Shown here piece by piece: positions 10,026 through 27,283 of a stretch of DNA of 40,386 nt; position 1 is the stretch's first letter, and each line of letters begins with the position of its first letter. The position numbers and the translations under genes were made by a program. This DNA is from a bacterium (lineage in GTDB: Bacteria > Elusimicrobiota > Elusimicrobia > UBA1565 > UBA9628). The notes under the pieces were generated by a model. The model did no database searches and was not told the DNA's origin. It saw only the letters and a list, made by a program, of their open reading frames with translations. The stretch spans positions 1 to 40,386 of the forward strand of contig JAJXTZ010000004.1 in assembly GCA_021783355.1 (NCBI GenBank). The letters are read 5' to 3'.

Positions 10026-10031
10026 TATAAT
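10026..10031 (+). promoter_or_regulatory. -10 element (TATAAT) for the two-component operon
   Basis: Exact TATAAT 14 nt before ATG 10046. Confidence 0.55.
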
Positions 10032-10045
10032 GGCGCTCCAAACCC

Positions 10046-10720
10046 ATGAAACTGCTCATCGTCGAGGACGACGACAAGATCGCCTCGTTCGTCTCCAAAG
10101 GGATGACACAGGCCGGGTTCACCGTGGACCGGGCGCGCGACGGCGACGAGGGGCTCGCGCTGGCTCTCCACGGGCCCTACGCGCTGGCGATCGTGGACCT
10201 GATGCTGCCCGGTCTGGACGGCTTGGCCCTGATCGGCGCTCTGCGCCGCCGCGGGGCGCGCCTGCCGGTGCTGATCCTCAGCGCCAAGCGCAGCGTCGAT
10301 GAGCGGGTGCGCGGCCTCCAGGCCGGAGGCGACGACTACCTGTCCAAACCCTTCTCCTTCGCGGAGTTGCTGGCCCGCGTGCAGGCCCTGACCCGGCGCG
10401 CGGACGCCGGCGCCGACCCCACGCGCCTTGAGGCGGGCGGGCTGCGCCTGGACCTCCTCGCCCGCGAGGTGCGCCGCGGCGCGGCGCGCATCCCCCTCCA
10501 GAGCCGCGAGTTCGCGCTGCTGGAGCTCCTGATGCGCCACGCCGGCAGGCCCGTGCCCAAGGCGATGATACTGGAGAGCGTCTGGGGCTACGACTTCGAC
10601 CCGCAGACCAACGTGGTCGACGTCCTCGTCCACCGTCTGCGCGGCAAGCTCGACAAGGCCGGCGGGCGCGAGACGATCCGCACCCTGCGCGGCGTCGGCT
10701 ATGTCCTCGACGCGCCTTGA
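10046..10720 (+). CDS. OmpR-family response regulator, CusR/CopR-like
   Basis: REC (IVEDDDKI, IVDLMLPGLDG, LSAK, KPF) plus winged helix VPKAMILESVWGYDFDPQTNVVDVLVHRLRGKLDK...IRTLRGVGYVL. Confidence 0.93.
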   Translation: MKLLIVEDDDKIASFVSKGMTQAGFTVDRARDGDEGLALALHGPYALAIVDLMLPGLDGLALIGALRRRGARLPVLILSAKRSVDERVRGLQAGGDDYLSKPFSFAELLARVQALTRRADAGADPTRLEAGGLRLDLLAREVRRGAARIPLQSREFALLELLMRHAGRPVPKAMILESVWGYDFDPQTNVVDVLVHRLRGKLDKAGGRETIRTLRGVGYVLDAP

Positions 10721-12107
10721 ACGGCTGGCGCGCCTCAGGCGCACCGTCGGCTTCCGCCTAGCCGCCTGGCAGGCAGGCTTCCTGCTGGCCGGCGGCATGG
10801 GCATCCTGTTCCTGGCCTACGCGGCGCTGGCCGCCTCGCTGCGCGACGGCGACCGCGCCGTCGTCGTCTCCGAGCTCCAGGAGTTGGCCGCGGCCTACCG
10901 CGCGGGCGGCGCCGACGGCCTGCGCGCGGAGGCCGCCGCTCAGAGGCTCCTGCCGCAGGGCCAGGCCTATGTGGGCGTCGTCCTTCCGGATGGGACGGCT
11001 GCCGCGCTGCTCGCGCCGGCCGCGGGCCGCGGCTTCGACCTGAGCCGGCTGGGCCCCGCGCCCTCGGGTCCGGGAGTCTTCTGGAGCCGCGCGGGCTCGC
11101 CGGACGACGAGGACGCCCTGGAAATCGCCTCCGAGCGCCTGCCCGACGGCGCGGTCCTGCGCGCGGGCCTGACCACGGCCGTCCGGGAGGCGTTCCTTGA
11201 GCGCTTCCGCGTCGTCGTCGCGGCTTTCCTGCTTCCCCTGGCCCTGTTGGCCGCCGGCGGCGGCGTCCTTCTCACGCACCGCGTCCTGGCTCCGCTGCGC
11301 GAGCTCATCGTCACGATCCGCGACATCGAGTCCGGCGCTCTCGACGCGCGCGTCGAGGTCCGCGGCACCGGCGACGAGCTCGACGCGCTGAGCGCGCTGT
11401 TCAACCGGATGGTGGACACCGTCGCCGCGCTGATGGCCGGCATGCGCGGGGCGCTCGACGACGTCGCTCACGACTTGCGCACGCCGCTGACGCGCCTGCG
11501 CGGCGGCGCCGAGGTCGCGCTCTCCGGCGGGGACGCGGCGGCCCAGCGCGAGGCCCTGGCCGCCGCCATCGAGGAGTCGGACGTCATCCTCGCGATGCTC
11601 GACGGGATCATGGACGTCGCCGAGGCCGAGGCCGGAGCCATGCGCCTGAGACTCGAGGACGTGGATGTCGTGCGCCTGCTGGGCGACACCGTCGAGCTTT
11701 ACGCCCCCGCCGCCGAGGAAAAGGGCCTGCGCCTGACGGCCTCGGCGCCGCCCGGCCTGCGCCTGCGTGCCGACCGCGCGCGCCTGCGGAGGGCCTTGGC
11801 CAACCTGGTCGACAACGCGGTCAAATACGTCCCCCGCGGCGGCCGCGTCTCGCTGTCGGCCGAGCGCGAGGACGGCGCGGTCGTCGTCTGCGTGCGCGAT
11901 GACGGCCCCGGCATCCCGCCCGAGGACCTGCCGCGCGTCTGGGACCGTCTCTTCCGCGGCGACCGCAGCCGCTCCGAGCGCGGCCTGGGCTTGGGCCTGA
12001 GCCTGGTCAAGGCCGTCGTCGAAGCCCACGGCGGCCGCGTCCGCGTCGACAGCCGCCCCGGCGCGGGAGCGGTCTTCTTCCTGCGCCTGCCGGACGCCGG
12101 CGCATGA
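10701..12107 (+). CDS. Sensor histidine kinase (HAMP-HisKA-HATPase)
   Basis: Two TM segments, HAMP, DVAHDLRTPLTRLRG, NLVDNAVKYVP, VRDDGPGIPPEDLPRVWDRLFRGD, GLGLGLSLVKAVVEAHGG. Confidence 0.93.
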   Translation: MSSTRLERLARLRRTVGFRLAAWQAGFLLAGGMGILFLAYAALAASLRDGDRAVVVSELQELAAAYRAGGADGLRAEAAAQRLLPQGQAYVGVVLPDGTAAALLAPAAGRGFDLSRLGPAPSGPGVFWSRAGSPDDEDALEIASERLPDGAVLRAGLTTAVREAFLERFRVVVAAFLLPLALLAAGGGVLLTHRVLAPLRELIVTIRDIESGALDARVEVRGTGDELDALSALFNRMVDTVAALMAGMRGALDDVAHDLRTPLTRLRGGAEVALSGGDAAAQREALAAAIEESDVILAMLDGIMDVAEAEAGAMRLRLEDVDVVRLLGDTVELYAPAAEEKGLRLTASAPPGLRLRADRARLRRALANLVDNAVKYVPRGGRVSLSAEREDGAVVVCVRDDGPGIPPEDLPRVWDRLFRGDRSRSERGLGLGLSLVKAVVEAHGGRVRVDSRPGAGAVFFLRLPDAGA

Positions 12108-12119
12108 CACGCGCGTCAT
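12104..12119 (+). promoter_or_regulatory. CusR-box-like operator 1
   Basis: ATGAC-ACGCGC-GTCAT; exactly 32 bp upstream of TACACT (12152-12157), which is 6 nt before ATG 12164. Confidence 0.6.
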
Positions 12120-12163
12120 GCGCGCGCAAGCCGGCGCGCGCGCCGAGGCGCTACACTGGGGGC

Positions 12164-12859
12164 ATGATTTCCGCCGCGCTCGCGCTGCTGCTGACGGCCG
12201 GCCGCGCCCGCGGGCAGTATCTGCCGCCGCGCGTCGAAGTCGCGCGCCTGCCCGGCGCCGGCAAGCACTATCCGCTTGAGCCCTCGCAGGTGGTCGCCGG
12301 CGACTGCCGCCGCCTGGAGCTCAGGGACCCCTCCGTGCGCGTGCGGGAGTTGGCCGTCGTCCGCGTCACGGCCGACACGCCCTGGTACGTCGGCGTGGGC
12401 AGCGTCGCCCGGGACAAGGCCGGCGAGCTGGGCGCCAACTGCGTCGAAAAACGCTCCGAATGGGGGCGGGGCTCCTATCCGCTGCGCGTGAGCTACCGCG
12501 CCTATCTGCTCGACCGGCAGGTCGGCTTCGGCTCGACGGCCTACCGCGCGGCCGTTCCCCGCTCGGAGCTCGCGGCCCTCGCGACCGCCGCGTCGCCGCC
12601 GGCCGTCGCGGCGGCTCCCGCGGCGGCGAGCCCGCCCACCGCGGGCGACGCGCCGCTGTGGACGAACGGTGACTTCATCTTCCGCTTCGAGATCGGCATG
12701 GACACCGCCAAGTTCCCGGACGCCGTCTGGCGGGACGTCGCCCAGGATTTCAGGGAGTATTTCCCGCCCGCGCAGTACGCCGTCCTCCTGCGCGCGCACG
12801 CCCGCGGCGGCAGGATCCTGGTCGACTTCAAGAACCTTCGGATCACGGAGCTCCGCTGA
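12164..12859 (+). CDS. Secreted hypothetical protein
   Basis: MISAALALLLTAGRARGQYLPPRVEVARLPGAGKHYPLEPSQ...; signal-like N-terminus; TACACT-N6-ATG. Confidence 0.65.
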   Translation: MISAALALLLTAGRARGQYLPPRVEVARLPGAGKHYPLEPSQVVAGDCRRLELRDPSVRVRELAVVRVTADTPWYVGVGSVARDKAGELGANCVEKRSEWGRGSYPLRVSYRAYLLDRQVGFGSTAYRAAVPRSELAALATAASPPAVAAAPAAASPPTAGDAPLWTNGDFIFRFEIGMDTAKFPDAVWRDVAQDFREYFPPAQYAVLLRAHARGGRILVDFKNLRITELR

Positions 12860-13374
12860 GCGCGGCGCGCCGACCGCGCTGGCCGGACGCCGCCGGGCGC
12901 CGAAGGCTCGCCGACGAGCTCTTCCGCCTGAGCGTCTGGGTCAAGGTGGCCGACGGCGTCCTCGGCGCCGCGGCTGGAGCGGCCTTCCTGGCGGTCCGGC
13001 GCGCCGCGCTCGACCGCTGGGTCGTCCTGCTCACGCGCGACGAACTGGCCGAGGACCCGACGGACTTCCTCGCCTCGCATCTGCGCGCCTGGGCCGCGCA
13101 TCTGGGCGCGGACGCCCGCACGGCCGTCGCGGCCTACTTGATCGCCCACGGTACGCTCAGCGTCGTGCTCGGCGTCAACGTGCTCAAGGGCCGCCTCTGG
13201 GCCTACCGCTGGGCCGGCGCGCTCCTGGCCGCGTTCACGCTCTACTTGGCCTACCGGGTCGGGCGCGAGCGCTCCCCAGCCCTGGCGCTCCTCTGCGCCT
13301 GGGACCTCGCGATCCTGATCCTGCTGGCCTGGGAGTTCCGCCTTCACGCGCGGCGGCGGGCCGCCGCCGGCTGA
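12856..13374 (+). CDS. DUF2127-like membrane protein
   Basis: ELFRLSVWVKVADGVLGAAAGAAFL...AYLIAHGTLSVVLGVNVLKGRLWAYRWAGALLAAFTLYLAYRV. Homologous-looking sequence extends upstream of the track start 12946; an in-frame CTG at 12856 overlaps the preceding TGA (CTGA). Confidence 0.65.
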   Translation: MSAARRPRWPDAAGRRRLADELFRLSVWVKVADGVLGAAAGAAFLAVRRAALDRWVVLLTRDELAEDPTDFLASHLRAWAAHLGADARTAVAAYLIAHGTLSVVLGVNVLKGRLWAYRWAGALLAAFTLYLAYRVGRERSPALALLCAWDLAILILLAWEFRLHARRRAAAG

Positions 13375-13392
13375 ACGAAGGCGGCGGCGCGG

Positions 13393-14040
13393 TCAGGGCG
13401 CCGCTTTTTCCAGCTCGTCGACGAAGTCAGAAGCTCGGGCGCCCTGGCGTTCGCGCTGGACGACGGTCCCGGGCGCCTTGAGGCCCTCGACCAGCGCGTC
13501 GCCCTTGGCGGCCAGGGGCTCGTTCCCGGCGAACCGCGGGCGCAGGGCGCTCCAGAGCGCGGCCATCTGTCCGCATCGCCGCTCCACCGCCGCGCGGTCG
13601 CCGGGCGCGCCGCGCCTGGAGCGCAGGAGGATCTCGCCGGCCAGGTAGTCGAACCAGACGAGCCGGCGTGCCAGCCGCCTGGACGGCGGGTCCAGGCGCA
13701 TAGCCAGCAGGGTCACCTGCGTCGCGGCCAGCGCTCCCGAAGCCGACGCCCCGCGCGCGCATAGAAGCCGGGCCCGGTCGAGAAGATCATCGGCCACGGC
13801 CAGGTCGATGTCGGCCGCCCCTCCCGCCTGGATCGCGGTGATCGTCACGCGCCGCGCGTCCGCCTGCGCCTGCGCCGCCAGCCGGCGCGCGTCGGCCGTT
13901 TTTCCGGCCAGGCAGGCGTCGGACAAGTCCTCGGCCGCCTCGCCCAAGGCGTGCGCCGGCATCGGCGGCGCGGCCAGCGCAGGCACGGCGCACGAGAACG
14001 ACAACAGAACGGCCACGACGCGGCTTTTCGCGTTTTTCAT
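13393..14040 (-). CDS. Secreted hypothetical protein
   Basis: MKNAKSRVVAVLLSFSCAVPALAAPPMPAHA signal peptide; helical Ala/Arg-rich mature part. Confidence 0.65.
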   Translation of the reverse strand: MKNAKSRVVAVLLSFSCAVPALAAPPMPAHALGEAAEDLSDACLAGKTADARRLAAQAQADARRVTITAIQAGGAADIDLAVADDLLDRARLLCARGASASGALAATQVTLLAMRLDPPSRRLARRLVWFDYLAGEILLRSRRGAPGDRAAVERRCGQMAALWSALRPRFAGNEPLAAKGDALVEGLKAPGTVVQRERQGARASDFVDELEKAAP

Positions 14041-14055
14041 CGGGTCTCCCGTGCA

Positions 14056-14303
14056 TGATACGCCGAAGAATCCATTGCGCTCCTCTCGAGTACAGGTAGC
14101 CCAAGTTGTTCTGCGCGGCCGCGTTTTCCTTGGCGACCGGCTTCAGATAACACTCGCTCGCGCGCCGGCTTGGCCGCGTCCCCTTAACGCTCGGACTCGT
14201 ATGCGTATCGGGAATCCTCCAGCAGGCCCGCCCGGCAGGCCGCCGCCGCGGTCAATAGGACGACTGCGGCGGCGGCGCCGGCACGGCAGCGGCGCCTAAT
14301 CAT
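14056..14303 (-). pseudogene. Remnant of a Sel1-repeat lipoprotein (or a 39-aa lipoprotein ORF 14184-14303 followed by a Sel1 fragment)
   Basis: ORF MIRRRCRAGAAAAVVLLTAAAACRAGLLEDSRYAYESER* (ATG overlaps the PepSY stop), followed in another frame by ASECYLKPVAKENAAAQNNLGYLYSRGAQWILRR, which matches the Sel1 AxxQxxLGxxYxxG pattern. Confidence 0.5.
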
Positions 14304-14871
14304 TGCCTTCGTGCTCTCCGTGCTCGTCTTTCCCGCCGGATTCGCCTTTTTCTCCCTTCTCGCCTTTTTCTCCCTTCTCGCCTTTTTCGTCCGCCTCGGC
14401 CTTCTCGCCGCCCGCGCGGGCGGGCTTGATGCCCAGGATGCGGCCGGCGGCGCTCACGGTCGCGCGCAGGACGCGCCCGTCCTTGGCCCGGATCGTGACC
14501 AGGCTCTCCCGGCCCGACCGGGACAGACGGCTGTCCAGCACCTCCCCGGCGATGCGCGCCTTGACGACCTCCTCGGCGCGGTCCAGGATCTTCTCGTGCC
14601 CCTGCTCGGCCGCGGATTCCAGGACGTTGCTGATGACCGCGCCGGTCTTGGCATCCACCCAGACCTCGCGCAGGCCGTCCGGGGCCTTCATGTCGAAGGA
14701 CCATATGTCGTGCCCGTCCTCGTGCTCATGCTCGGCGCTCTCCACGCGCGCGCCCGGGATCGACGCCAGGGCCGCCTTCGTCGCCGCCTCGCGGCTCACC
14801 TTCGGGGACGTCCCGGCCCAGGCCGGGACCGCCGCCAACGCCACCGTCAACGCCAGGGGAATGTTTTTCAT
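14296..14871 (-). CDS. PepSY-domain secreted protein with EKG-repeat, His/Glu-rich tail
   Basis: MKNIPLALTVALAAVPAWAGTSPKVSREAATKAALASIPGARVESAEHEHEDGHDIWSFDMKAPDGLREVWVDAKTGAVIS; tail GEKGEKGEKGEKGESGGKDEHGEHEGND. Confidence 0.85.
   Translation of the reverse strand: MKNIPLALTVALAAVPAWAGTSPKVSREAATKAALASIPGARVESAEHEHEDGHDIWSFDMKAPDGLREVWVDAKTGAVISNVLESAAEQGHEKILDRAEEVVKARIAGEVLDSRLSRSGRESLVTIRAKDGRVLRATVSAAGRILGIKPARAGGEKAEADEKGEKGEKGEKGEKGESGGKDEHGEHEGND
14344..14388. repeat. 18-bp tandem repeat encoding (EKG)n
   Basis: Repeated cgcctttttctcccttct units starting at 14343, 14361 and (partial) 14379. Confidence 0.8.
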
Positions 14872-14915
14872 GCCCTCAGTATGCCAGGTTCTCGTCGCGC
14901 GAGTCTTGCTCCCGG

Positions 14916-14931
14916 ATGACAAGCGCGTCAT
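14916..14931 (-). promoter_or_regulatory. CusR-box-like operator 2
   Basis: Gene-direction ATGAC-GCGCTT-GTCAT; exactly 32 bp upstream of CATACT (14883-14878), which is 6 nt before PepSY ATG. Confidence 0.6.
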
Positions 14932-15782
14932 GCGGCCTCCGCCTGCCCGGCGTCCGGCGCCGGGAGCGCGTCCGCCGCGCCGGCCTCCGCGCCGATCACG
15001 TCCTTCCTCGTCAGCGTGAGGTAAGCGACCAGGGCCAGGATCGCGGCCAGGAAGAGCGCGCTCGTGGCGGTCGTCCCCAGCCCCAGGCCGCCGGCGGAGC
15101 CGGGCTGGGACAAAAAGTCGCCGATGGAGGCGCCCAGCGGGCGCGTCAGGATGTAGGCCAGCCAGAAGCCGGCGACGGCGTTCGTGGACTGATGCCGGTG
15201 CCCTGAGGCCAGAAGCGCGCGCAGGCCGTAGTGCCCGGCCGCCACGGCCGCGATGAGGCCCGCGAAGATGAGCAGCGAGGTCAGATAGCCCAGCCCCCAT
15301 TTTTCCGCGGACAGGTCGCCCGCCGCCGTGCCCAGCGCGAAGGTGAACAGGATCGTCAGCCAGTAGAAGGCTTCGCGGCGGGTCGTGAGGATGCTGTGCA
15401 CGGACAGGGTCTTCTCGGCCGCGTACCAGCCCGCGAAGGTCGCCAGGAGCAGGACGGAAAAGACGAGAGTGCTCGTCGTCAGGGGCACGCCCAGGCGGTC
15501 CGTCAGGTTGTCGGTGATCAAGGTGCCCACGACGCTGAGCAGGACGACGGCCAGCCAGTAGACGGACGGCACGTACTTCTTCTTGCGGAACTGCACGGCC
15601 ATGACGACGGCGAGGAGGCCGCTCATGACGAGGGAGGTGTTCGTCAAGCCGAAATGGAGCGTCTCGTTGAGGTAATCGGCCGCGGTCTCGCCGATCGTCG
15701 TGCAGAGGACCTTGATGATCCAGAAGTAGACCGTGATCTCAGGAACCTTGTTGAGCATCCTGCGCGCAGGGCTTGCGTTCAT
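14928..15782 (-). CDS. COG4705-like uncharacterised multi-TM membrane protein
   Basis: MNASPARRMLNKVPEITVYFWIIKVLCTTIGETAADYLNETLHFGLTNTSLV...FWLAYILTRPLGASIGDFLSQP; SD AGGAGG upstream of ATG. Confidence 0.8.
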   Translation of the reverse strand: MNASPARRMLNKVPEITVYFWIIKVLCTTIGETAADYLNETLHFGLTNTSLVMSGLLAVVMAVQFRKKKYVPSVYWLAVVLLSVVGTLITDNLTDRLGVPLTTSTLVFSVLLLATFAGWYAAEKTLSVHSILTTRREAFYWLTILFTFALGTAAGDLSAEKWGLGYLTSLLIFAGLIAAVAAGHYGLRALLASGHRHQSTNAVAGFWLAYILTRPLGASIGDFLSQPGSAGGLGLGTTATSALFLAAILALVAYLTLTRKDVIGAEAGAADALPAPDAGQAEAA

Positions 15783-15873
15783 CGTCGTGCCTCCTGAGGG
15801 CGGCCGCGCGCGTGCGCGGCAACCCCTCGCCCGACAGCATAACCCGCCCGCGCGCCCGCCGCCTGTCGCGGCT

Positions 15874-15889
15874 ATGACAATCCTGACAG
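15874..15889 (-). promoter_or_regulatory. CusR-box-like operator 3 (degenerate first half)
   Basis: Gene-direction CTGTC-AGGATT-GTCAT; exactly 32 bp upstream of TATGCT (15841-15836). Confidence 0.5.
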
Positions 15890-16099
15890 GCGCGCGCTCG
15901 GCGGGCAGCGCGTCTTGCGGCGCCGGCGTCCTACCCCATGGCGCCGCGAGGCGGAAGGGGGCCGCGCGGAGTCCCGTCCTTCCCGGAGGCCGAGCGCTCG
16001 TCCTTGAGACTGAACTCGGAATAATTCCCAGCGGAGAATGCTCCGCACGGGTCTTCAGCGGATTTCGGGCCGGTTCGGGACCCGCGGAGAGCCGGCGCT

Positions 16100-17182
16100 C
16101 TACGGCTTCTTCGTGCCCGCGCGGATCAGAGGACGGAGCAGACGCATGACGCGCAGCCGCGGGCGGCCGCCGGCGTCGGCGAGCGGGAAGTAGGCCAGCC
16201 CAGTTTCGGGGTCCACCGCGACGCTGTGCGCGTCGGGTCCGACCCAGCCGCGCCACAGCGTCCTCGGCCTCCCGCCGCGGACGGAGAAGACCGTCGCGAC
16301 GCCGCTCTCGGCGGCGACATAGAGGAGGCCACGCCGGGCGTCCAGCGCCAGCACGTCGGGGTCCCGGCCGACCCGGTCTACCGAGACGGCGCGCAGGTCC
16401 GGCAGAGACAGCGTGAGCAGGCGCGCGTTCGCGTCGCAGGCCACGAAAACGGCACTGTCGGCGTCGTCGACCAGCAGGCCGTGGTCGTGCTCGCAGCTCG
16501 CCGGAAGAGGCAGGCGCCGGACGATCGTCAGCGCCCGCGGGTCGATCACCGCCAGCTCGCGGCGCGTCTGCACGTCGACCAGGACCCGCCGGCCGTCCGC
16601 GTCGTAGGCGCTGTTGCCGGCCTCCCCGCCCAGCGCCAGCGTCTTCAGCACGCGCGGAGGTTCGCCGCCGATCACCGTCTCGCTCCCACCGCGCTCGTCG
16701 GAGACGAAAAGACGGCGCAGGGGCGCGGCCCAGGCGCAGCCGTCGGGAAAGGCGCCGGCGGGCAGGTCGGCGACCGTCGCGAGGTCGGTCAGCCGCAGGG
16801 CCCGCACGCGGCCGCGCCCCAAGGCGCGGCTCGGGAGCGAGCCGGTCGCGCTGACGAAGGCCAGGCCGAGAGGCGGCGCCAGCGTGATCCCCGTGGCCCC
16901 GGGGAAGCCGGGCACGTCCGCGACCGCGCGTCCGCGCCGCACGTCGTAGACCAGGACGCGTCCGGCTTCCATCCGGCTGATGTAGAGGCGTCCGGAGGCC
17001 GCGTCGAAAGCTTGGTAGTCGAAGCGCCCGGCCGGTCCCGGCAAGGGCAGGTCGGCGACCCGCTCCAAGCGCCAGGAGCCGCGCACGGACGCGGCGCGCG
17101 CGGACGCCGCGAAGCCCGCCAGCAGAACCGCCGCCAGCCGCCAGGGGCGGCCGGAGCCCGGCCGGCGTCTCCACGCGGTCAT
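16100..17182 (-). CDS. Secreted YVTN/YncE-type beta-propeller protein
   Basis: Signal peptide plus blade repeats (GRLYISRMEAGRVLVYDVRRGRAVADVPGFPGATGITLAPPLGLAFVSA...); ATG overlaps upstream OMF stop (ATGA). Confidence 0.8.
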   Translation of the reverse strand: MTAWRRRPGSGRPWRLAAVLLAGFAASARAASVRGSWRLERVADLPLPGPAGRFDYQAFDAASGRLYISRMEAGRVLVYDVRRGRAVADVPGFPGATGITLAPPLGLAFVSATGSLPSRALGRGRVRALRLTDLATVADLPAGAFPDGCAWAAPLRRLFVSDERGGSETVIGGEPPRVLKTLALGGEAGNSAYDADGRRVLVDVQTRRELAVIDPRALTIVRRLPLPASCEHDHGLLVDDADSAVFVACDANARLLTLSLPDLRAVSVDRVGRDPDVLALDARRGLLYVAAESGVATVFSVRGGRPRTLWRGWVGPDAHSVAVDPETGLAYFPLADAGGRPRLRVMRLLRPLIRAGTKKP

Positions 17183-18516
17183 GGCGGTCGGGCGAAAGGC
17201 GTGCCGAGAAGGGCGTTCAGAGCCAAGCGGTCGGCGTCCAGGGCCGCACGCAATCGAATGGATTCCTCTTCGTCCTGCAAGAGGGACGTTTCGAGGCCGA
17301 CATAGGCGCCGGTGTCCATCTCGCCGCTTCGAAACTGCTGTTGGGCCACCCCGGCCATCGCCTTCAGAGCGGCGGTCTGCGCTCGGAGGCGCGCGAGCTG
17401 TTCGGTCATGATCGTCGTCGACCGCCAAAGCCCGTCGGCCTGACTTTGCGCCTGATCGAGCCGCGCCTGGTAGTCGGCTCGCAGCGCCTCGCGGCTGGCA
17501 CGCTCGATCGCCACTCGCCCACGGTTGCCGTTGAAGACCGGGAGGCCGACCTCCACCGACAGGCTGACGGCGTGGACGCCGTCGGCCGCGCCGCGGCCCC
17601 ATCGGAAGCCGGCAGTCAGCGCCGGGAACTGGGCGCGCACGGCGGCGCGTAGGCGCTGCTCCTGGCTCTCGTAGCCGGCTTGAAGGGCCAAGAGGTCGAC
17701 GCGATGCGCCGCCAGAGCGCCGAGGGCGTCCTTAAACTCCTCACGCGATAGCGCTGGTGCCGGGCCCGTCGCCGCCCGCAGGCTCGGACGCGCCTCGGGG
17801 TCGAGACCCAGAAGATAGTTCAGCTCATGCCGGGCCGCATCGGCGTCGAGCTGGACCCGCCGCAATCGGGCGTCGGCGTCCGACAGGACCGTGAGGGCGG
17901 CGGCCACCTTCCGGACCGCCGCGGCGTTCTGCTGGAAATCCGCCGAGTCGAGCTCATATTGCTGAGCCAGGAGCCCGCGGCTTCTCTCGATGACGGCTCG
18001 AAGGTCCTCGTCCTTCCGGACGCGGATGAAAAGCCGGCCGGCCGCCACGGCCGTCTGCCACTCTTTCCAAAGGATCGCCAAGTCCACCTGACTGCGCCGC
18101 GCGCGGGCCTGCGCCTGGGCCGCGGGCCGGAGGACGAAGGCCTGGATATCCTCGCTGACTCCCAGGCTGTAGCCGGTGAGCTCGGGGCCGCGCCCGACGC
18201 CGGCCGCCAAATGGGGGTCGGGCAGCAGACCGGCCGCGAACAACTGGGCCTTCGCCACGCCGGCCTCAAGGCGCGCCGTCTTCAGATCGGGATCGTTGAG
18301 CACGGCCAGAGTCATGGCGTCCGTCACGTCAAGGGCCTGCGGCGCGGAGGTCGAGAGGCCGAGCCCCGGGACTTGGACGGCGGAGGCGGAGGAAACCGCG
18401 GCGACCTCGGAGAGGGCGTCGGACGCCGTCGGCAGGCTTCGCCGCGAATAGGCGGCGCACCCGGACGCGAGAATCGCCGCGGCCGCGGGACACAGCACCC
18501 GAACGTGAAGCCTCAT
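17179..18516 (-). CDS. TolC-family outer membrane efflux protein (OMF1)
   Basis: MTLAVLNDPDLKTARLEAGVAKAQLFAAGLLPDPHLAAGVG, VGLPVFNGNRGRVAIERASREALRADYQARLDQAQSQ. Confidence 0.88.
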   Translation of the reverse strand: MRLHVRVLCPAAAAILASGCAAYSRRSLPTASDALSEVAAVSSASAVQVPGLGLSTSAPQALDVTDAMTLAVLNDPDLKTARLEAGVAKAQLFAAGLLPDPHLAAGVGRGPELTGYSLGVSEDIQAFVLRPAAQAQARARRSQVDLAILWKEWQTAVAAGRLFIRVRKDEDLRAVIERSRGLLAQQYELDSADFQQNAAAVRKVAAALTVLSDADARLRRVQLDADAARHELNYLLGLDPEARPSLRAATGPAPALSREEFKDALGALAAHRVDLLALQAGYESQEQRLRAAVRAQFPALTAGFRWGRGAADGVHAVSLSVEVGLPVFNGNRGRVAIERASREALRADYQARLDQAQSQADGLWRSTTIMTEQLARLRAQTAALKAMAGVAQQQFRSGEMDTGAYVGLETSLLQDEEESIRLRAALDADRLALNALLGTPFARPP

Positions 18517-21500
18517 GACGCCCCGCCGCGAGCCGCGAGCCTGAGGCGCCGGGTCATGTAAAGCGCCGGAATCAGATTGGTGCTCAGCAAAGCGCTCCAG
18601 ACGATCCCGCCCAGGGTCACGATGGCCAGGCCCTGCTCCGGCGCGGCGCCCTGGCCGAAGCCGAGCGCCGTCGGAAGCATCCCCAGCACGGCCGTGAGCG
18701 TGGTCAAGACGATGGGCCGGAAGCGCACGCGGATGGCCTCGCGAACGGCGGCCTCCGGCCCCATTCCGGACAGCTCGTTGCGGCGCGCGCGATAGAGCAG
18801 GACGATGCCGTGGTTGAGGCCGATGCCGATCAAGGTCAGGAAGGCCACCAGGCCCGTGGCGTTGAGTCCCACCGTGCTGACCGCCAGAGCGATCGCGCCG
18901 CCGGTGAAGGCCAGGGGCGTGAGCAGCAGCAGCAGGCCGGGCGCCAGGAGGCCGTCGAACTGCAGGACCAGGATGCCGATCATCAGCACGAAGGCCGCCA
19001 GGGCGGCGACGGTCAACCCCAGAGCCGCCTTTTCCAGCTCGGGATAGAGGCCGCCGAAGGCGTAGCGATAGCCGGGAGGCAGCGGGATTTTCTCGAGCTG
19101 GGCGCGGGCGGCGGAGATCGCGCGGCCCAGCGGTCCCGTCGGTATCGCGAGGATTTCGAGGGCGCGCGCCCCCCCGATGTGGACGAGCTGGTTCGGGGTG
19201 ATCGCGAGGTCCAGTCGCGCCAATTGCCCGAGAGGAGTCCAGCCCGAAGTGCGAATCGGCAGGCGCGCAAGATCGGCCATGGATTTTTCGGGAGCGTCGG
19301 CCAGGCGCAGGTAGAGGTCGAGCGGGACGTTGCCATCAGGAACGCGCGCCGCGATCACGCCGTTGATCAGAGGCTCGACCTGCTTTTGCAGGTCGCCCGG
19401 CGTCAGGCCGTAAGCGGCGAGCGCGCCGGCGTCGGGCTTGAGCTGAATCTGGCTGACGGGATAGGCGTTGTTGTTGAAAATCGACGTTAGCGAGGGAACC
19501 TTCTTGAGGACGTCGGAGAACCGCTCGGCAAGCCGCCGCAGGACGGAGATGCGGCTGCCGAAGATTTCGAGCACGAAGGGCTGGGGCAGCCCCGAGAGGC
19601 TCTCTCCGACGCGCTCCAGCGTCGGCGTGCCCATCGCCGTCTGCACGCCCGTCATTCGGCTGGCCGCCAACAGCCGCGCGCCGATCTTGTCGAGGCTGTT
19701 GAAATTGACGCCGGGCTTAAGAGAGATCGTGATCTCGCCCGCGTAGGCGGGCTCGGTGTAGGCCGAGCTTGACGGCGAGCCGATGCGCGCCATGACGTGG
19801 TCGACGGCGGGATCGGCCCGCAGGCGCGCCGTGATCGCGGCGACGGCGGTCTCCGTCTCGGCCAGCGAACTGCCGGGCGGCAGCGTGAAGCTTTCGAGCA
19901 GGACGCCCTCGTTGGGCAAGGGCAGGAAATTGACCGGGACGACGGCCAGAGCGCCCAGGCTGACCAGAAACAGCGTCAGACACGCCCCGAGAGCCTTTCC
20001 GGGCCGCTGAAGAATCCAGTCGAAGATGCGCTCGTTCGCTCGCCTGAGCCGGTCGAGGGCCTGAGCGCCGGCGGCCTCTTTGGCGCCGTGGCGCGCCCTG
20101 ATGAAGCCGAGGCTCAGAGGGATGAAGGTCAGCGAGACCAGCAGAGAGGCGAGCAGCGACAAAGTCATCGCCAGGGCGAAGGGAATGAAAAACAACCCGG
20201 CGATGCCGCCGACGAACAGCATCGGGATGAAGACGGAGACCGTCGTGAGCGTCCCCGTCGTATCCGGCCCCGCGATGTCCTTGACGCCGCGCGCTATGCC
20301 CGTCCAATGCTCGTCGCCTTGCTCCCACCGGTGATAGATGCTCTCCAGGACGATGATGGCGTCGTCGGCGAGAAGCCCGACGGCCACGGTCAGGGCGCCC
20401 AGGGTCATCAGATCGAGGCTCTGGCCGGCGGCGTAGAGCGCCGCGACGCCCATGAGCAGCGACAGGGGTATGCTCAGCCCCAGAATCCACGTGTCTCCGC
20501 TTCCCCCCAGCGCCCAAACCAAGACGGCGATCGCCAGGATGCCGCCGACGACGAGATTGACGCCGAGGTCCTTGCCGACCGCGCCGACCAGGCGTCCTTG
20601 GTCATAGATCTTGATCCAGCGGACTCCCGCCGGAAGCGCGGGCAGCGTCTCGGCGATGGTCGCCGCCGCGGCGCGCGTGACGGGAATCGTCGAGGCGCCG
20701 GGCTGCTTGAACACGGTCAGGGCCAGCGCCGGGCGGCCGTCGAGGAGCAGGGCGTTGAGCGTGGGCACGGCGGAGCGCACGACGCGCGCCAGAGCGCGCA
20801 GGGGGATCGGGCCCTCCGCCCCGGCCACCGGGACGGCCTCGAGCTGGGCCGCCGTGACGGGGAGGTTGCGCGCCTCGATGAAGACGTCCTGATGGCCTTC
20901 GGTCAGATAGCCGCCGGGGGTCAGCAGGACTTGGCTCTTGAGGGCGTCCACAAGGGCGGTGACGGGGACCTTGTAGCGGTGAAGCGCGGCCAGGTCGGGC
21001 TGGACCCATAGCGCCTCGTCGCCGCTGCCGTAGACGTCGACGCGCTGCACGCCGGGCAGGGCGCGCAGCGCGGGGACGACGTCCGCCAGGACGGCGCGCT
21101 GGGCCTGCGCCGGCGGCTCGGAGGCCGGGAGCTCAAGGGCGTAGTCGGCCACCTCGTTGACCGCGTTGCCCATGATCTGGGCCATCGGGTGAACCGAAGC
21201 GGGCAGGTCGGCGCGGGCCAGATCGATCGCGCCGCTGACGGCCTGGAGGTCGAGCTGGGCGTTGGTTCCTGCTTGGAACCGCACGTCGATCTCCGCCGTG
21301 CCGTTGCCCATCGTCGATCGGACCGAGGCCAGACCGGGCAGGGCCATGATGCGCCCTTCGAGCGGCCGGACGAGCTGCGTCTCCAGCTCGACGGCGGCCG
21401 CGCCGGGCTCGTGGGCGACGACGCTGATCTGCGGGAAGTCGAAGCGGGGAAGGACCTCGACCGGGATCTTATGCCAAGCATAGAGGCCGTAAGAGAGAAG

Positions 21501-21578
21501 GCCTCCGTAGACCAGCGCCCAAAGCACCGGCTTGGTCAGGAGCTCCGCCAGGCCCTTCGGCTCTCTTCCTGGCATCAA
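18513..21578 (-). CDS. RND efflux permease 1
   Basis: 1021 aa; VEVLPRFDFPQISVVAHEPGAAAVELETQLVRPLEGRIMALPGLASVRS, VGLLADDAIIVLESIYHRWEQG, LTLIGIGLNHGIVLLYRARRNEL. Confidence 0.92.
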   Translation of the reverse strand: MMPGREPKGLAELLTKPVLWALVYGGLLSYGLYAWHKIPVEVLPRFDFPQISVVAHEPGAAAVELETQLVRPLEGRIMALPGLASVRSTMGNGTAEIDVRFQAGTNAQLDLQAVSGAIDLARADLPASVHPMAQIMGNAVNEVADYALELPASEPPAQAQRAVLADVVPALRALPGVQRVDVYGSGDEALWVQPDLAALHRYKVPVTALVDALKSQVLLTPGGYLTEGHQDVFIEARNLPVTAAQLEAVPVAGAEGPIPLRALARVVRSAVPTLNALLLDGRPALALTVFKQPGASTIPVTRAAAATIAETLPALPAGVRWIKIYDQGRLVGAVGKDLGVNLVVGGILAIAVLVWALGGSGDTWILGLSIPLSLLMGVAALYAAGQSLDLMTLGALTVAVGLLADDAIIVLESIYHRWEQGDEHWTGIARGVKDIAGPDTTGTLTTVSVFIPMLFVGGIAGLFFIPFALAMTLSLLASLLVSLTFIPLSLGFIRARHGAKEAAGAQALDRLRRANERIFDWILQRPGKALGACLTLFLVSLGALAVVPVNFLPLPNEGVLLESFTLPPGSSLAETETAVAAITARLRADPAVDHVMARIGSPSSSAYTEPAYAGEITISLKPGVNFNSLDKIGARLLAASRMTGVQTAMGTPTLERVGESLSGLPQPFVLEIFGSRISVLRRLAERFSDVLKKVPSLTSIFNNNAYPVSQIQLKPDAGALAAYGLTPGDLQKQVEPLINGVIAARVPDGNVPLDLYLRLADAPEKSMADLARLPIRTSGWTPLGQLARLDLAITPNQLVHIGGARALEILAIPTGPLGRAISAARAQLEKIPLPPGYRYAFGGLYPELEKAALGLTVAALAAFVLMIGILVLQFDGLLAPGLLLLLTPLAFTGGAIALAVSTVGLNATGLVAFLTLIGIGLNHGIVLLYRARRNELSGMGPEAAVREAIRVRFRPIVLTTLTAVLGMLPTALGFGQGAAPEQGLAIVTLGGIVWSALLSTNLIPALYMTRRLRLAARGGAS

Positions 21579-22210
21579 TCAGGGGGCTGATAAGCCTGAG
21601 CCACGCGGCGGTGGTATTCCAAGTAGGCGTTGGCGACGACGACGCGGGTCCCCGGCTCCAGTCCGCTTTCGATGAAGGTGTCCCACCCGCGCGCCGGCCC
21701 CGGCCGCACTTCTTGAGGCACGTCGCCGGAAGCGGTGCGCACGAGCACCCACCAGCGCCCGCGGTCGAGAACGAGGGCGCGCGTCGGCACCTTCGGAAGG
21801 TCTCGCGGGGGTCCGCTCAAAGTCACCGTGCCGAACATGCCGTTCTGCCAGTCGGGCTTGGCGGGGGCCGCGATCATCGCCACCGATTCCCCGCCGTCGG
21901 CGCGCAACAGAGAGAATTTGGCGCACACCTTGACGGGCACGGAGCGGCCCGAGCCCGCCGGCGCGAAGTTCCCCTTCAGTCCCGGCCGAAGCTCCTTGAG
22001 GTCGGCGCCGTAGAAGGCGGCCTTGAGCCATAGCCCCTCGGAGGCCGCGCAGCCCCGCGGCCGCGCGTTTCCCCAGGCCAGGGGAGGCTCGACTTGGGCA
22101 TAGGCTTGGTAGTGTGCGCTGACGGTGCTCGTTCGCACCGTCATGACGTCCGCTTCGCCGGCGGTTCCCGCATGAGCGAGAGATGCCAATGCGAGAAAAA
22201 AGAAGCTCAT
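21575..22210 (-). CDS. Minimal periplasmic adaptor-like protein 1
   Basis: Signal peptide; LRPGLKGNFAPAGSGRSVPVKV and VPTRALVLDRGRWWVLVRTASGDVPQEVRPGPARGWDTFIESGLEPGTRVVVANAYLEYHRRV resemble MFP barrel/membrane-proximal domains; ATGA overlap with RND1. Confidence 0.7.
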   Translation of the reverse strand: MSFFFLALASLAHAGTAGEADVMTVRTSTVSAHYQAYAQVEPPLAWGNARPRGCAASEGLWLKAAFYGADLKELRPGLKGNFAPAGSGRSVPVKVCAKFSLLRADGGESVAMIAAPAKPDWQNGMFGTVTLSGPPRDLPKVPTRALVLDRGRWWVLVRTASGDVPQEVRPGPARGWDTFIESGLEPGTRVVVANAYLEYHRRVAQAYQPPD

Positions 22211-22235
22211 TCAATCTCCTCGGAACTGCGCTGAA

Positions 22236-25200
22236 TTATGACATTTTGCGGCGCCGGCGGCCGGGCCGCGCGACCAGCGCCGCGGCGGGCAGGACGATCA
22301 GCGTGAGCAAGGTCGAGGTCAGGATGCCGCCGATCACCGCGATCGCCAGCGGCTTCTGCAGCTCCGAGCCCGTCCCCCAGCCGGCCGCCAGCGGCAGGAG
22401 GCCAAGGATCATCACCGCGGCCGTCATCAGGATCGGGCGCAGGCGCTTCATGGCCGCCGCGTGCACGGCCTCCTCAAGGGGATGGCCCGCCGAGAGCATC
22501 AGGTTCATGTAGTCCAGCAGCATGATCCCGTTGCGCACGACGATGCCCACGAGGAGGACCGAGCCGATCATCGAGGAGACGTTCAGGGTCTGCCCGGCCA
22601 GCCACAGCGCCCAGACCGCGCCCACGCCGGCCAGCGGGATCGTCAAGAGGACCAGCAGGACCTGGGCGGCCGAGCGGAACTCGATCCACAGGATGAAGGC
22701 CACCACCATCACGGCCAAGAGGAGGACGTCGGCCATGTTGCCCATCGCCGCGCTTTGCGCCGCGTATTTGCCGGAGAAGTCCCACGAATAGCCCGCCGGC
22801 AGGCCCAGGGCGTCGGCGGCCCGGCGGATGTCGGCGGCCGCGTTCTTCGTGTTGCGGCCCCGGACGTTGGCGGTGATCGTGATGCGGCGAGTCATGTGGT
22901 CGTGCTGGATCTCGCTGGGGATGTCGCCGTAGCCGACGGCGGCCACCTGCTCGAGCGGGACGGTGCTGCCGCCCGCGGTCTGGAGCGGCAGGCTGCGCAG
23001 GGCCTCCAGGTCCAGGTCGCGGCCGGCCGGGGCCAGGTGCACCACCACGTCCACCTGCTTCTGCACCTCGCGCACAGCGGTCACGGTCAGGCCCGAGGAG
23101 AAGGCGCGCAGGGCGTCGTCGAGGGCGCGCTGGGAGATGCCCAGGCGCCCGGCCTCCTTCTTGTCGACCGTGATCTGGAGGGAGGGCACCGGCGCGTCGG
23201 TCGGCGGGCGCAGGTCGACGAGGCCCCGGATCGCGGACAGCTCCGGCAGCAGCTTGGCGGCAAAGCGGTGCAGGACGCCCAGGTCCGGACCGTACAGGTT
23301 GACCCCGATGTCGGCCGGGACGCCGCCCAGGGCGTCGTTGATCTTGTCGGCCAGCGGCATCAGGTAATCCACGAGGACGCCGGGCAAGGCCGCGGTCTTC
23401 TCGCTCATCAGCGCGATCATCCGGGAGAGCGCGATCGGCCGTTCGCCCTTGGAGACCAGCTTGAGCATGATGTCGCTGTGGTTGACGTTGTCGGTGTCCT
23501 CCGCGCCCGGGGCGTGGCCGGTGCGGCGCACGACGGTGACGACGCCGGGCAGGCCCTTGGCCCACAGCTCGATCTTGCGGTTGACGCGCTCGGCCTCGGG
23601 CAGCGAGGTGCCGGGCGGCATCGTGGAGTTGAGCAGGAGCGCGCCCTCGTCGAGGTCCGGCAGGAAGGAGAGGTCCAGGCGGCGGAAGGCGAGGCCCGCC
23701 AGCAGCAGGGCCGGCACGAAGCCCAGGAGCACGACGGTCTTCGGCCGCCGGAAGGCGGGGGCGAGCGCGCGCGCGTAGAGCCCGTGCAGGGCGCCCTCCT
23801 TCTCCTCGGCCACCTCGCGGCCGGAGAGGAAGCGGTCGGCCAGCGCCGGGATCGCCGTCAGGGCCACCACCAGCGAGGCCAGGAGCGCGAAGGTGACCGT
23901 GCCGCTGACCGGGGCGAACAGGCGCCCGGGCAGGCCCGCCACCAGCACCATCGGGGCGAAGATGCCGATGTTGGCGAAAGTCGAGGCCACGACCGGGATC
24001 GCCACCTCGGCCGTCGCGCGCGCGATCACCTGCGGGTGGCTCGCGCGCCCGCGCAGCTCCGGGGTCGCCAGCCAGCGGAAGATGTTCTCCAGGACGATGA
24101 TCGTGTTGTCGACGATGATGCTGGTGCCGATCGCCAGGCCCCCCAGGGACATGATGTTGACGCCGATGCCCGCCGCGCGCATCCCGACGACCGCCGCCAG
24201 CACCGAGAGCGGGATGCTCAGGGTCGCGATCAGGGTCGTGCGCGCGTGGCGCAGGAAGGCCATCAGCACCAGCACCACCAGCAGCGCCCCGATCCAGACG
24301 CTCTCCTTGACGCTGGCGATGGAGTCGTCGACGAGCCGGGCCTGGTCGTAGTAGTTGCGGATCGTCTCGCCGGCGGGCAGGCTCCGGGAGAACTTGGCGA
24401 CCTCGGCGCGCACGCCCGCGGCGACGGCTCCGGTGTCGTAGCTGGGCTGCTTGAGCACCTGGACGAGGACGGCGGGGCGCCCGTCCTGCGAGGTGTCGCC
24501 GCGCTCGTACTGGAACTCCTTGTCCACGCGCGCCACGTCCTTGACGCGGACCGGCACGCCGCCCTTGACCGCGACCACGGTCTCGGCGATCTCGCCGGCG
24601 TCGCGGAACTGGCCGTTGACGTGCAGGACCAGCTCCTGGTCGTAGTCGTTGACCACCCCCGGGCTCGACAGGATGTTGTTGTCGTCGAGCGCGGAGCGCA
24701 GGTCGGAGAGGGTCACGCCGTACTTGATCATCAGGTAGGAGTTCGGGTAGACGGCGTACTCGTCGACCTTGCCGCCCATGACCAGGACCTTGTAGACGCC
24801 CGGGATGCGCTGCAGGCGCGGCTTGAGGTCGTACATCGCCGAGTCGCGCAGGGCGACGAGGTCCTTGCCGCCGGTGAGGCTGTAGCCCTCGATCATCGAG
24901 AGCGTCGCGCTGAGGTTCTCGATCGTGGGCTGGGCGCCGGGCGGCAGCTGCCCCTGGACCGCCGAGAGCGCCTCGATGAGCAGCTGGCGCGCGGTCAGCA
25001 TGTCGGTGCCCCACCGGAAGGAGACCGAGACCATCGCGATCCCGGTCCCCGAGACCGAGCGCACGTCGGTCACGCCCAGCACGCCGCTGGCCGCGCTCTC
25101 GATGGGCAGGGTCACCTGCCGCTCCATCTCGAGCGAGGAGTAGCTGGGCACCTCGACGATCACGTTGAGCGTCGGGAAGTTCAGCGTCGGGAACAGGTCC

Positions 25201-25313
25201 ACCTTGAGGCCGCGGTAGGCCGCCGCGCCCAGGACGACCACGGCGGCGCAGGCCAGCGCGATCGCCGAGCGCGCTTGGAGCAGTCGTCCGATCAGGCGCT
25301 CCAGGAGCTCCAT
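22236..25313 (-). CDS. RND efflux permease 2 (CzcA/CusA-like superfamily member)
   Basis: 1025 aa; GLKVDLFPTLNFPTLNVIVEVPSYSSLEMERQVTLPIES, IGTSIIVDNTIIVLENIFRWL, LLVGIVVRNGIMLLDYMNLML. Confidence 0.92.
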   Translation of the reverse strand: MELLERLIGRLLQARSAIALACAAVVVLGAAAYRGLKVDLFPTLNFPTLNVIVEVPSYSSLEMERQVTLPIESAASGVLGVTDVRSVSGTGIAMVSVSFRWGTDMLTARQLLIEALSAVQGQLPPGAQPTIENLSATLSMIEGYSLTGGKDLVALRDSAMYDLKPRLQRIPGVYKVLVMGGKVDEYAVYPNSYLMIKYGVTLSDLRSALDDNNILSSPGVVNDYDQELVLHVNGQFRDAGEIAETVVAVKGGVPVRVKDVARVDKEFQYERGDTSQDGRPAVLVQVLKQPSYDTGAVAAGVRAEVAKFSRSLPAGETIRNYYDQARLVDDSIASVKESVWIGALLVVLVLMAFLRHARTTLIATLSIPLSVLAAVVGMRAAGIGVNIMSLGGLAIGTSIIVDNTIIVLENIFRWLATPELRGRASHPQVIARATAEVAIPVVASTFANIGIFAPMVLVAGLPGRLFAPVSGTVTFALLASLVVALTAIPALADRFLSGREVAEEKEGALHGLYARALAPAFRRPKTVVLLGFVPALLLAGLAFRRLDLSFLPDLDEGALLLNSTMPPGTSLPEAERVNRKIELWAKGLPGVVTVVRRTGHAPGAEDTDNVNHSDIMLKLVSKGERPIALSRMIALMSEKTAALPGVLVDYLMPLADKINDALGGVPADIGVNLYGPDLGVLHRFAAKLLPELSAIRGLVDLRPPTDAPVPSLQITVDKKEAGRLGISQRALDDALRAFSSGLTVTAVREVQKQVDVVVHLAPAGRDLDLEALRSLPLQTAGGSTVPLEQVAAVGYGDIPSEIQHDHMTRRITITANVRGRNTKNAAADIRRAADALGLPAGYSWDFSGKYAAQSAAMGNMADVLLLAVMVVAFILWIEFRSAAQVLLVLLTIPLAGVGAVWALWLAGQTLNVSSMIGSVLLVGIVVRNGIMLLDYMNLMLSAGHPLEEAVHAAAMKRLRPILMTAAVMILGLLPLAAGWGTGSELQKPLAIAVIGGILTSTLLTLIVLPAAALVARPGRRRRKMS

Positions 25314-25316
25314 TCG

Positions 25317-25964
25317 TCAGTCGCCTCCCGCGGCCTTGAAGCCGGGATCGAGGAGGCCGATCCCGCCGACCGCGACGACCGCATCGCCGTCGGAGAGCCC
25401 GGCGCGGATCTCCACGTCGCTTCCGATGCCCTCGCCCAGGACGACCGGGGTCGGCTCGTAGGAGACCGCGCCCCCCGCGGCGGGGCGCGCGCGCACGACC
25501 ATCGTGCGGCCGCCTCGGACCATGACGGCGGCGCGCGGCGCGGTCAGCACCCCCCGCCGCTCGCCCACGGTGATGCGCACGTACAGGAAGTCGTTGTCGG
25601 GAACCCCGTCGCGCCCCTCGGGCGAAAGCCAGACCAGGGCCTGTCCCGTCTCGGCGCTGGCGTCGCGCATCGTGCGCACGACCCGGCAGCGGACCGGGCT
25701 CGTCGACGGCAGGACGAAGGCGAAGGCCTGCTGGCCCGGGCGCACCTTGGGCGCGTCGGCGGCCTCCACGGTCGCCTCGAACACCTCTCCCGACGCGCCG
25801 CGCGCGGCGATGCCATAGGCCGGGACGCGCTCGGGCAGGTCGCGGCGCCGGACGACGACGGCCTGGGGCGCGTCGCTCAAGGGGGCCAGCGCCGGCTCCG
25901 CGCGCCGGGCGCAGCCGGCCGCGGCCGCCAGGAGCAGGACCGCGAGGGCGCGTCTAGCGGTCAT
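25317..25964 (-). CDS. Minimal adaptor-like lipoprotein 2
   Basis: Lipobox-like LLLAAAAGCARR; VRPGQQAFAFVLPSTSPVRCRV; VLTAPRAAVMVRGGRTMVVRARP...GSDVEIRAGLSDGDAVVAVGGIGLLDPG (MFP C-terminal pattern). Confidence 0.72.
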   Translation of the reverse strand: MTARRALAVLLLAAAAGCARRAEPALAPLSDAPQAVVVRRRDLPERVPAYGIAARGASGEVFEATVEAADAPKVRPGQQAFAFVLPSTSPVRCRVVRTMRDASAETGQALVWLSPEGRDGVPDNDFLYVRITVGERRGVLTAPRAAVMVRGGRTMVVRARPAAGGAVSYEPTPVVLGEGIGSDVEIRAGLSDGDAVVAVGGIGLLDPGFKAAGGD

Positions 25965-27222
25965 AGGCCGCCGTGTAGCGCCCGCCGGTCAGGCGCTCCA
26001 GGGTCGCCAGATCGGTCAGGTACGAGTAGTAGGCCGCGCGCTCCTGGAGCAGGGCGTTCAGCCACAGGTTCAGCGCGTCCGTCGCCTCCAGGACGCCGGC
26101 GGCTCCCAGGCGATAGCGCTTGACCTCGGCGAGCGCGGCTTGACGAACCTGAGGGAGAAGCGCGGCGAGGACTTGCTGATCCCCGCGATGAGTCCGCGCC
26201 TCGCCGCGGACGCGCGCCAGCCGCGCCAGCAGGAACTGCCGGCGCTCCTCCACCCGGGCCCGCGCCAGACGGACCTCCGCCCGCGCCCGGTCGGTCCGGG
26301 CGGAGATCTGCCCGCCGTCGTACAGGGGCACCCGCAGCCCGAGCCTCGCCGCCCAGCCGCGCGTCATCCCGCTCGTCGCGTAGTCCGCGTAGCCGTACTC
26401 CAGACCCCCGATCAGATCCGGCCAGCGCGCGCGGGCGGCGGCCGTCGCGCCCAGCCGGGCGGCGCGGGTCTCCTGGCCGAGCGCGGCCAGGGTCGGATCG
26501 CCCTGCAGGACCTCGGCCGAGAGGTCTCCAGGCGGACGCGCCCGGCTCCCGGCGACCGGCGCCAGGACCAGGCCCGACGCGTCCTGAAGCCCGACGGCCG
26601 ACGCCAGGGTCCGGCGCCGCGCGTCGAGCCGGGCGCGCGTCAGTCCCCGCTGTCGCGAGAGATCCGCCAGCGCCAGGCGCACCTTCACCGGGTCGAAGGC
26701 CGGCACGCGCCCGATCGAGAACTTGGGCAGCACGGTGTCCAGCAGGCCGCGCAGCTGGCCGGAGACCTGGTCGAGGCTGGCGACGGCGTCGGAGTCCTTC
26801 AGGATCGAGAAGTAAAGGCTCTTGATCTCCAGCGCGACGTCCGCGTCCGTCTCCGCGCGCGCGAGCGCCGCGGCCCGGGCCTGCGCCGCGCTCTGGCGGG
26901 CGCGGACCCAGTCCGGCGACAGCGGGTTGAGCGACTGCTCGAGGATCAGCGTCGCGTTGTTGTCGTCGGGAAGGTTCGTGGACGCGTCGTCGGAACGCAG
27001 CAGCTGTCCGCGAAAGCGCAGCTGGGGACGCTCGACGCCGCGCGCGCTCCTCAGAGACGCCCGCGCCGCGCCCTCCTCGAGCGCGGCCCGCACCGCCGGG
27101 ATCGACTGCTCCCGCGCCCGCGCCAGGCAGTCGCTCAGGCTCAGCGTCTCCCCCCGGGCGCGCGGCAGCGGCAGGGCGCAAAGCAAGAGCAGCGCGACGG
27201 AATCCTTCGGGCGCGGGCGCAT
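25954..27222 (-). CDS. TolC-family outer membrane efflux protein (OMF2)
   Basis: LSLSDCLARAREQSIPAVRAALEEGAARASLRSARG; LGLRVPLYDGGQISARTDRARAEVRLARARVEE. Confidence 0.88.
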   Translation of the reverse strand: MRPRPKDSVALLLLCALPLPRARGETLSLSDCLARAREQSIPAVRAALEEGAARASLRSARGVERPQLRFRGQLLRSDDASTNLPDDNNATLILEQSLNPLSPDWVRARQSAAQARAAALARAETDADVALEIKSLYFSILKDSDAVASLDQVSGQLRGLLDTVLPKFSIGRVPAFDPVKVRLALADLSRQRGLTRARLDARRRTLASAVGLQDASGLVLAPVAGSRARPPGDLSAEVLQGDPTLAALGQETRAARLGATAAARARWPDLIGGLEYGYADYATSGMTRGWAARLGLRVPLYDGGQISARTDRARAEVRLARARVEERRQFLLARLARVRGEARTHRGDQQVLAALLPQVRQAALAEVKRYRLGAAGVLEATDALNLWLNALLQERAAYYSYLTDLATLERLTGGRYTAAYDR

Positions 27223-27267
27223 CCAGACTATTGTGCGATGTCCTGCCGCCGACGCCCTTACCGGCGC

Positions 27268-27283
27268 ATTACATCCCGGTCAT
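27268..27283 (-). promoter_or_regulatory. CusR-box-like operator 4 (upstream of the double-RND operon)
   Basis: Gene-direction ATGAC-CGGGAT-GTAAT (9/10 to ATGAC-N6-GTCAT); exactly 32 bp upstream of CACAAT (27235-27230), 7 nt before OMF2 ATG. Confidence 0.55.

Follow-up and report, generated by a model that had tools for sequence, protein, structure and literature searches.

The window, that is, the whole stretch of 40,386 nucleotides that was analysed (contig C251 of a 2.70 Mb genome of an uncultured Elusimicrobiota bacterium, in 260 contigs and 91% complete), has a GC content of 72% and carries a two-component system (TCS) next to genes for secreted and membrane proteins and a long efflux operon (Table 1). 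In comparisons with NCBIfam the best model for the response regulator (RR) was TIGR01387 (heavy-metal RR), at 233.7 bits and below the cut-off of 279.2, and that for the kinase was TIGR01386 (CusS/CopS-type), at 221.4 bits and likewise below its cut-off (292.55). The single efflux operon combines two types of RND permease, RND2 being nearer to CusA/CzcA and RND1 nearer to multidrug permeases. With the CusA/CzcA model TIGR00914, RND2 scored 640.9 bits (cut-off 701.45) and has the motif IVDNTIIVLEN, which is without a DD pair, while RND1 scored 385.4 bits and has the multidrug-like motif ADDAIIVLES. The pump adaptors (MFPs) are short (211 and 215 aa), and their nearest models are CzcB/NccB.

Table 1. 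Genes and predicted regulatory elements of the window, in order of position.
Feature	Position	Strand	Remarks
OmpR-family response regulator (RR)	10046..10720	+	Pfam; blastp 47% identity to E. coli CusR, 46% to HprR
Sensor histidine kinase	10701..12107	+	TGA stop inside box 1
Box 1	12104..12119	+	ATGACACGCGCGTCAT, N32 to TACACT
Proximal repeat of box 1, in phase, GCAAG	12126..12130	+	Column set kept in 30-site alignment
-10 of promoter 1, TACACT	12152..12157	+	6 nt before ATG; predicted leaderless
Secreted protein, no Pfam match	12164..12859	+	Kept in both G012 clusters, 52-57%
DUF2127 membrane protein	12868..13374	+	In G012 with an N32 box of its own
Probable secreted protein, perhaps a further regulon member	13396..14040	-	Homologue directly before PepSY in G178, G179
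Secreted PepSY-domain protein (stop codon not counted)	14299..14871	-	Pfam
-10 of promoter 2, CATACT	14878..14883	-	6 nt before PepSY ATG; predicted leaderless
Proximal repeat of box 2, in phase, GCAAG	14905..14909	-	Column set in 30-site alignment
Box 2	14916..14931	-	ATGACGCGCTTGTCAT, N32 to CATACT
COG4705-like membrane protein with four DUF347 repeats (stop codon not counted)	14931..15782	-	Pfam PF03988; 73-76% identical copies in G012 clusters
-10 of promoter 3, TATGCT	15836..15841	-	Leadered gene, AGGAGG before start
Proximal repeat of box 3, in phase, GACAG	15863..15867	-	Column set in 30-site alignment
Box 3, distal half degenerate	15874..15889	-	CTGTCAGGATTGTCAT, N32 to TATGCT
Six-gene efflux operon OMF2-MFP2-RND2-MFP1-RND1-OMF1	17182..27222	-	OMF2-MFP2-RND2 also next to RR orthologues in G009, G012, G017, G019, G022
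-10 of promoter 4, CACAAT	27230..27235	-	7 nt before ATG; predicted leaderless
Proximal repeat of box 4, in phase, GTAAG	27257..27261	-	Same sequence at this position in E. coli hiuH
Box 4	27268..27283	-	ATGACCGGGATGTAAT, N32 to CACAAT

A sequence-only reading of this DNA had described four 16-bp sites, each placed 32 bp before a -10-like hexamer. We reproduced the 16-mers, their strands, the N32 gaps and the hexamers exactly at the positions of Table 1, and the genes downstream are those that had been named: 12164 (no Pfam match) with DUF2127, PepSY, the DUF347 gene (taken as COG4705) and the OMF of the RND operon. When both strands of the window were scanned in full for box, N32 and -10, exactly sites 1 to 4 and no further match came up, and 100 windows obtained by first-order Markov resampling contained no such site, as compared with the four observed. 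Sites 1 and 2 had been called the strongest. A perfect ATGAC-N6-GTCAT occurs only twice in the 2.7 Mb genome, at these two sites; the distal half of site 3 is degenerate, and site 4 has GTAAT. Each of the four -10 hexamers has 4/6 consensus matches. When one mismatch was allowed, ATGAC-N6-GTCAT was found 27 times genome-wide against 15 for the reversed control, and thus the loose motif by itself says little. A half-site followed by N32 and NANNNT, without the rest of the box, was rejected as unspecific (10 matches genome-wide, 3 of them in the window). The pattern of box, proximal repeat, N32 and -10 was specific in scans of the genus and phylum genomes, and at this spacing the motif proved rarer elsewhere in the genome than in the window. 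The TGA within ATGAC doubles as the stop codon of the gene upstream in boxes 1, 2 and 4, namely of the kinase (12104-12107), of COG4705 (14928-14931) and of an ORF at 27280-28689 (27280-27283).

Ten further Elusimicrobiota genomes, from two families and all with RR orthologues, show the same geometry, which gives 30 aligned N32 sites in total. The most informative columns of this alignment are those of TGTMAT (about -50 to -45), of G-H-A-A-G (about -38 to -34) and of the -10, with less information in the distal arm; the numbering takes transcription to begin 6 nt past the -10 as read from the sequence. The operator is an inverted repeat, ATKAC-N6-GTMAT, standing 32 bp from the -10 and followed 11 bp on by a half-site in the same direction (mostly GHAAG), which is recognisable in nearly all 30 sites, and no -35 consensus was seen. 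In the second family (G176-G180) a further GCAAG-like repeat follows another 11 bp on. The earlier description of a CusR/HprR-like box in a fixed geometry holds, but the element also includes the 11-bp direct repeat, and its proximal half is the better conserved. Operators of heavy-metal RRs follow the consensus ATKACA-N4-TGTMAT or TGACA-N4-TGTCA (PMC7380067, PMC12428095), and the 16-bp operator has this form here as well. Judged by its letters, the box is a heavy-metal-RR type box (AgrR, ATKACA-N4-TGTMAT; CusR; HprR). The recognition helix region of these RRs, FDPQTNVVDVLVxRLR, is nearly invariant and resembles that of CusR and HprR. The residue before RLR (VLV[H/C]RLR) is His in this genome (G000) and in G012 and Cys in all other orthologues aligned, and GTCA half-sites were found only in genomes with the His RR, a split that is confounded with descent.

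Several of the -10s in the window and in G012 are followed after 6-7 nt by ATG or GTG. In 184 kb of sequence, TANNNT-N6-ATG and TANNNT-N7-ATG were found 26 times each, against about 7 at other distances, and a -10-like TANNNT 6 or 7 nt before the start is several-fold over background in the window and in loci of G012, G009, G017, G214, G019 and G011 (L079-L083, L116, L120-L122, L129). Many genes in the window's family thus look leaderless, and this peak supports the -10s of promoters 1, 2 and 4 independently of the box. The TANNNT peak was absent in the second family (G176-G180).

Within the same genus, G012 holds two paralogous clusters that keep the RR (75%), the kinase (65-66%), 12164, DUF2127, PepSY and COG4705, each with N32 boxes before five genes (PepSY, DUF2127, COG4705, a Sel1-repeat protein and a glycosyltransferase). 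The COG4705 promoters of these clusters, orthologous to promoter 3, keep TGTCAG-N32-TATACT. A third G012 locus has the RR (83%), the kinase and OMF2-MFP2-RND2, with the box before OMF2 (contig C11) at N31. In G009 and G017, where the order is RR-kinase-PepSY-OMF2-MFP2-RND2, PepSY is preceded by a site at N32, and so is OMF2 in G019 and G214; the OMF2 promoters of G012, G019 and G214 share the element of promoter 4. G022 has N32 sites before PepSY and before a small gene. In the second family the N32 boxes adjoin the RR-kinase pair in the form ATTAC-N6-GTAAT, and the boxed genes are PepSY, asparagine-synthase-like and PAP2 genes and, in G180, also the RR gene itself. Autoregulation was looked for in the window too, and no box was found 32 bp before the TATAAT at 10026 in the RR promoter. 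PepSY accompanies the RR at most loci and has its own box at eight, those outside the window being in G009, G012 (two loci), G017, G022, G176 and G177. Motif and spacing are therefore conserved in the promoters of relatives, as the sequence-only reading required.

When 341 genomes of the phylum were scanned with the refined pattern, 13/13 exact matches and 24/31 matches with up to one mismatch (reversed control, 4) fell in the 12 genomes with the RR, which make up about 4% of those searched; in the genus, the box-repeat-N32 pattern has five exact matches, all of them in G000 and G012. As most sites of relatives were collected with gaps of 31-33 only, the invariance of N32 among the 30 sites is partly by construction. 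The less biased test of spacing is the histogram of all gaps from 10 to 60 for the window and five other loci, in which gap 32 has 11 matches and any other gap at most 3 (7 against at most 2 without the window). A general tie of the box to COG4705 was rejected, for COG4705 homologues of other phyla (L022-L072) have no consistent N32 site, and the box thus follows this RR. Two of these homologues (L022, L024) lie near an RR-kinase pair (RR identity 40-47%) and are without this N32 box. At G201:C10:13673-13726 (L138) lies an N32 site with one mismatch and an additional GTAAG repeat; no RR orthologue was called in this genome, and the site is perhaps a more distant member.

Taken as a comparison of sequences, these data have shown that the box-N32-(-10) arrangement travels with this RR across two Elusimicrobiota families. 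Since the switch recurs in ten related genomes with the same RR gene, the shared element is best understood as the mark of a genuine circuit of known type that regulates cell-envelope and export genes. We put at roughly 0.85 the probability that the TCS at 10046-12107 controls a local regulon through the four heavy-metal-RR-type operators. The phosphorylated RR would bind at about -60 to -34 and would replace the missing -35 contact, that is, act by class II activation, so as to turn on 12164/DUF2127, PepSY, COG4705 and the double RND operon together.

Related circuits have been described in other bacteria. AgrR of Cupriavidus metallidurans recognises ATKACA-N4-TGTMAT with a better conserved proximal half, has an in-phase direct repeat that contributes to activation, and works at promoters with a good -10 but without a good -35 (PMC7380067). 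The elements of the window share with it the 16-bp consensus, the stronger proximal half, the in-phase repeat, the want of a good -35 and, as we propose here, class II (type II) activation; they differ in phylum, in targets and in position, as the centre lies near -43.5 for AgrR at the promoter of its own gene and at about -52.5 here. The E. coli CusR/HprR boxes ATGACAATTTTGTCAT and ATTACAAAATTGTAAT are also alike, and hiuH has GTAAGG at the repeat position of site 4, whereas the RR is only 46-47% identical, the regulon differs and the sensor region here is without His, Cys and Met. The distance from box to -10 is N32 at E. coli cusR and would be N33 at cusC and hiuH, if the -10s are TAAAGT (cusC) and TATCCT (hiuH), hexamers that were read from the sequence rather than taken from mapped starts. 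Hence the box-N32-(-10) geometry, which is indeed invariant across the four sites as had been claimed, is typical of its type and not unusual. UzcRS of Caulobacter, with a CATTAC half-site and sites at -43 or -53, likewise controls pumps together with secreted and membrane proteins (PMC8963506), but its alphaproteobacterial regulon is large, and the one described here is small and mostly local.

A precedent in gene content is the mmf cassette of Tn6048, reported to be metal responsive, in which PepSY, DUF347 (50% identical to the gene of the window in the pAKD16 copy), a secreted protein and a TCS also lie in one cluster (PMC4914505). The combination of the window, which had not been recognised as described, was thus known in part, though the cassette has no RND pump; it has instead an undecaprenyl-pyrophosphate-phosphatase-like gene. 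MmfR and MmfS are 36% and 32% identical to the RR and kinase, no box-N32 was found upstream of mmfA (pAKD16 copy), and the mmf regulator is no more than a distant relative. A literature search for COG4705 together with PepSY found no paper.

That the four sites are a chance coincidence in GC-rich sequence might be argued from -10s that match at only four of six positions and from the abundance of loose boxes, yet the resampled windows yielded none and the recurrence at equal spacing in ten other genomes already contradicts chance, a reading that we regard as practically negligible. It is improbable, though less so, that a genuine box is read by some other OmpR-family regulator elsewhere in the genome, the adjacent TCS being a chance neighbour. 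Such regulators are likely numerous (a loose first RR search gave 29-136 candidates per genus genome), and in G214 the RR and the boxed pump lie on different contigs; on the other hand, every exact match in the phylum scan falls in a genome with an RR orthologue, RND2-only loci without the RR (L129-L131) carry no good box, and the nearly invariant recognition helix region is CusR/HprR-like.

Whether the TCS senses metal is a separate matter. Genuine metal sensing as by CusRS, CzcRS or UzcRS, with induction of a metal efflux pump, would fit the nearest relatives of the RR (TIGR01387, CusR, HprR), an RND2 that is closest to CusA/CzcA even though below the cut-off and that is without the DD pair of RND1, adaptors closest to CzcB/NccB, and the precedents of UzcRS, which with a related half-site answers U, Zn and Cu (PMC8963506), and of the mmf cassette with PepSY and DUF347 (PMC4914505). 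Against this, RND1 is multidrug-like, no recognisable copper gene is boxed, and the periplasmic part of the kinase (residues 46-172) contains no His, Cys or Met in G000, nor is any of these residues conserved in the sensor region among nine kinase orthologues. The periplasmic domain of CusS has His/Met metal ligands, and kinase 10701..12107 is without such ligands. A PDB search with a profile of the sensor domain gave chance-level matches only (E > 0.6). As the sensor region is without His, Cys and Met and none of RR, kinase and pumps reaches the curated heavy-metal cut-offs, direct Cu/Ag sensing is doubtful and the transfer of function from CusR or AgrR is limited; metal sensing of this kind appears to us unlikely, but deserves to be kept in view.

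On the same grounds, sensor composition and family scores, we lean to an envelope-stress signal. The conserved core of PepSY, pump and DUF347, joined in relatives by PAP2, glycosyltransferase and asparagine-synthase-like genes, suggests a response to envelope damage, a reading whose basis is gene content alone. Of the envelope/metal-stress regulon proposed earlier, the local regulon tied to the adjacent TCS stands, with PepSY and envelope genes as its conserved core, and a metal trigger is the less probable part. We tentatively propose, at somewhat less than even odds, a PepSY-centred envelope-stress TCS of Elusimicrobiota that may have kept the heavy-metal-type operator without sensing metal through the usual ligands, and that would read half-sites arrayed every 11 bp and fire promoters that are largely leaderless in the window's family, its recognition helix changing between His and Cys in step with the use of GTCAT.

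In a phylum that is mostly without cultures, a regulator can in this way be predicted together with its operator and promoter geometry, with the backing of a comparison of two families, and tying PepSY, DUF347, DUF2127 and the RND pump pair to one regulator makes a shared role testable. The PepSY protein itself ends in a low-complexity C-terminal tail (EKGEKGEKGEKG...DEHGEHEGND), which corresponds to a short tandem repeat in the DNA (14299-14400).
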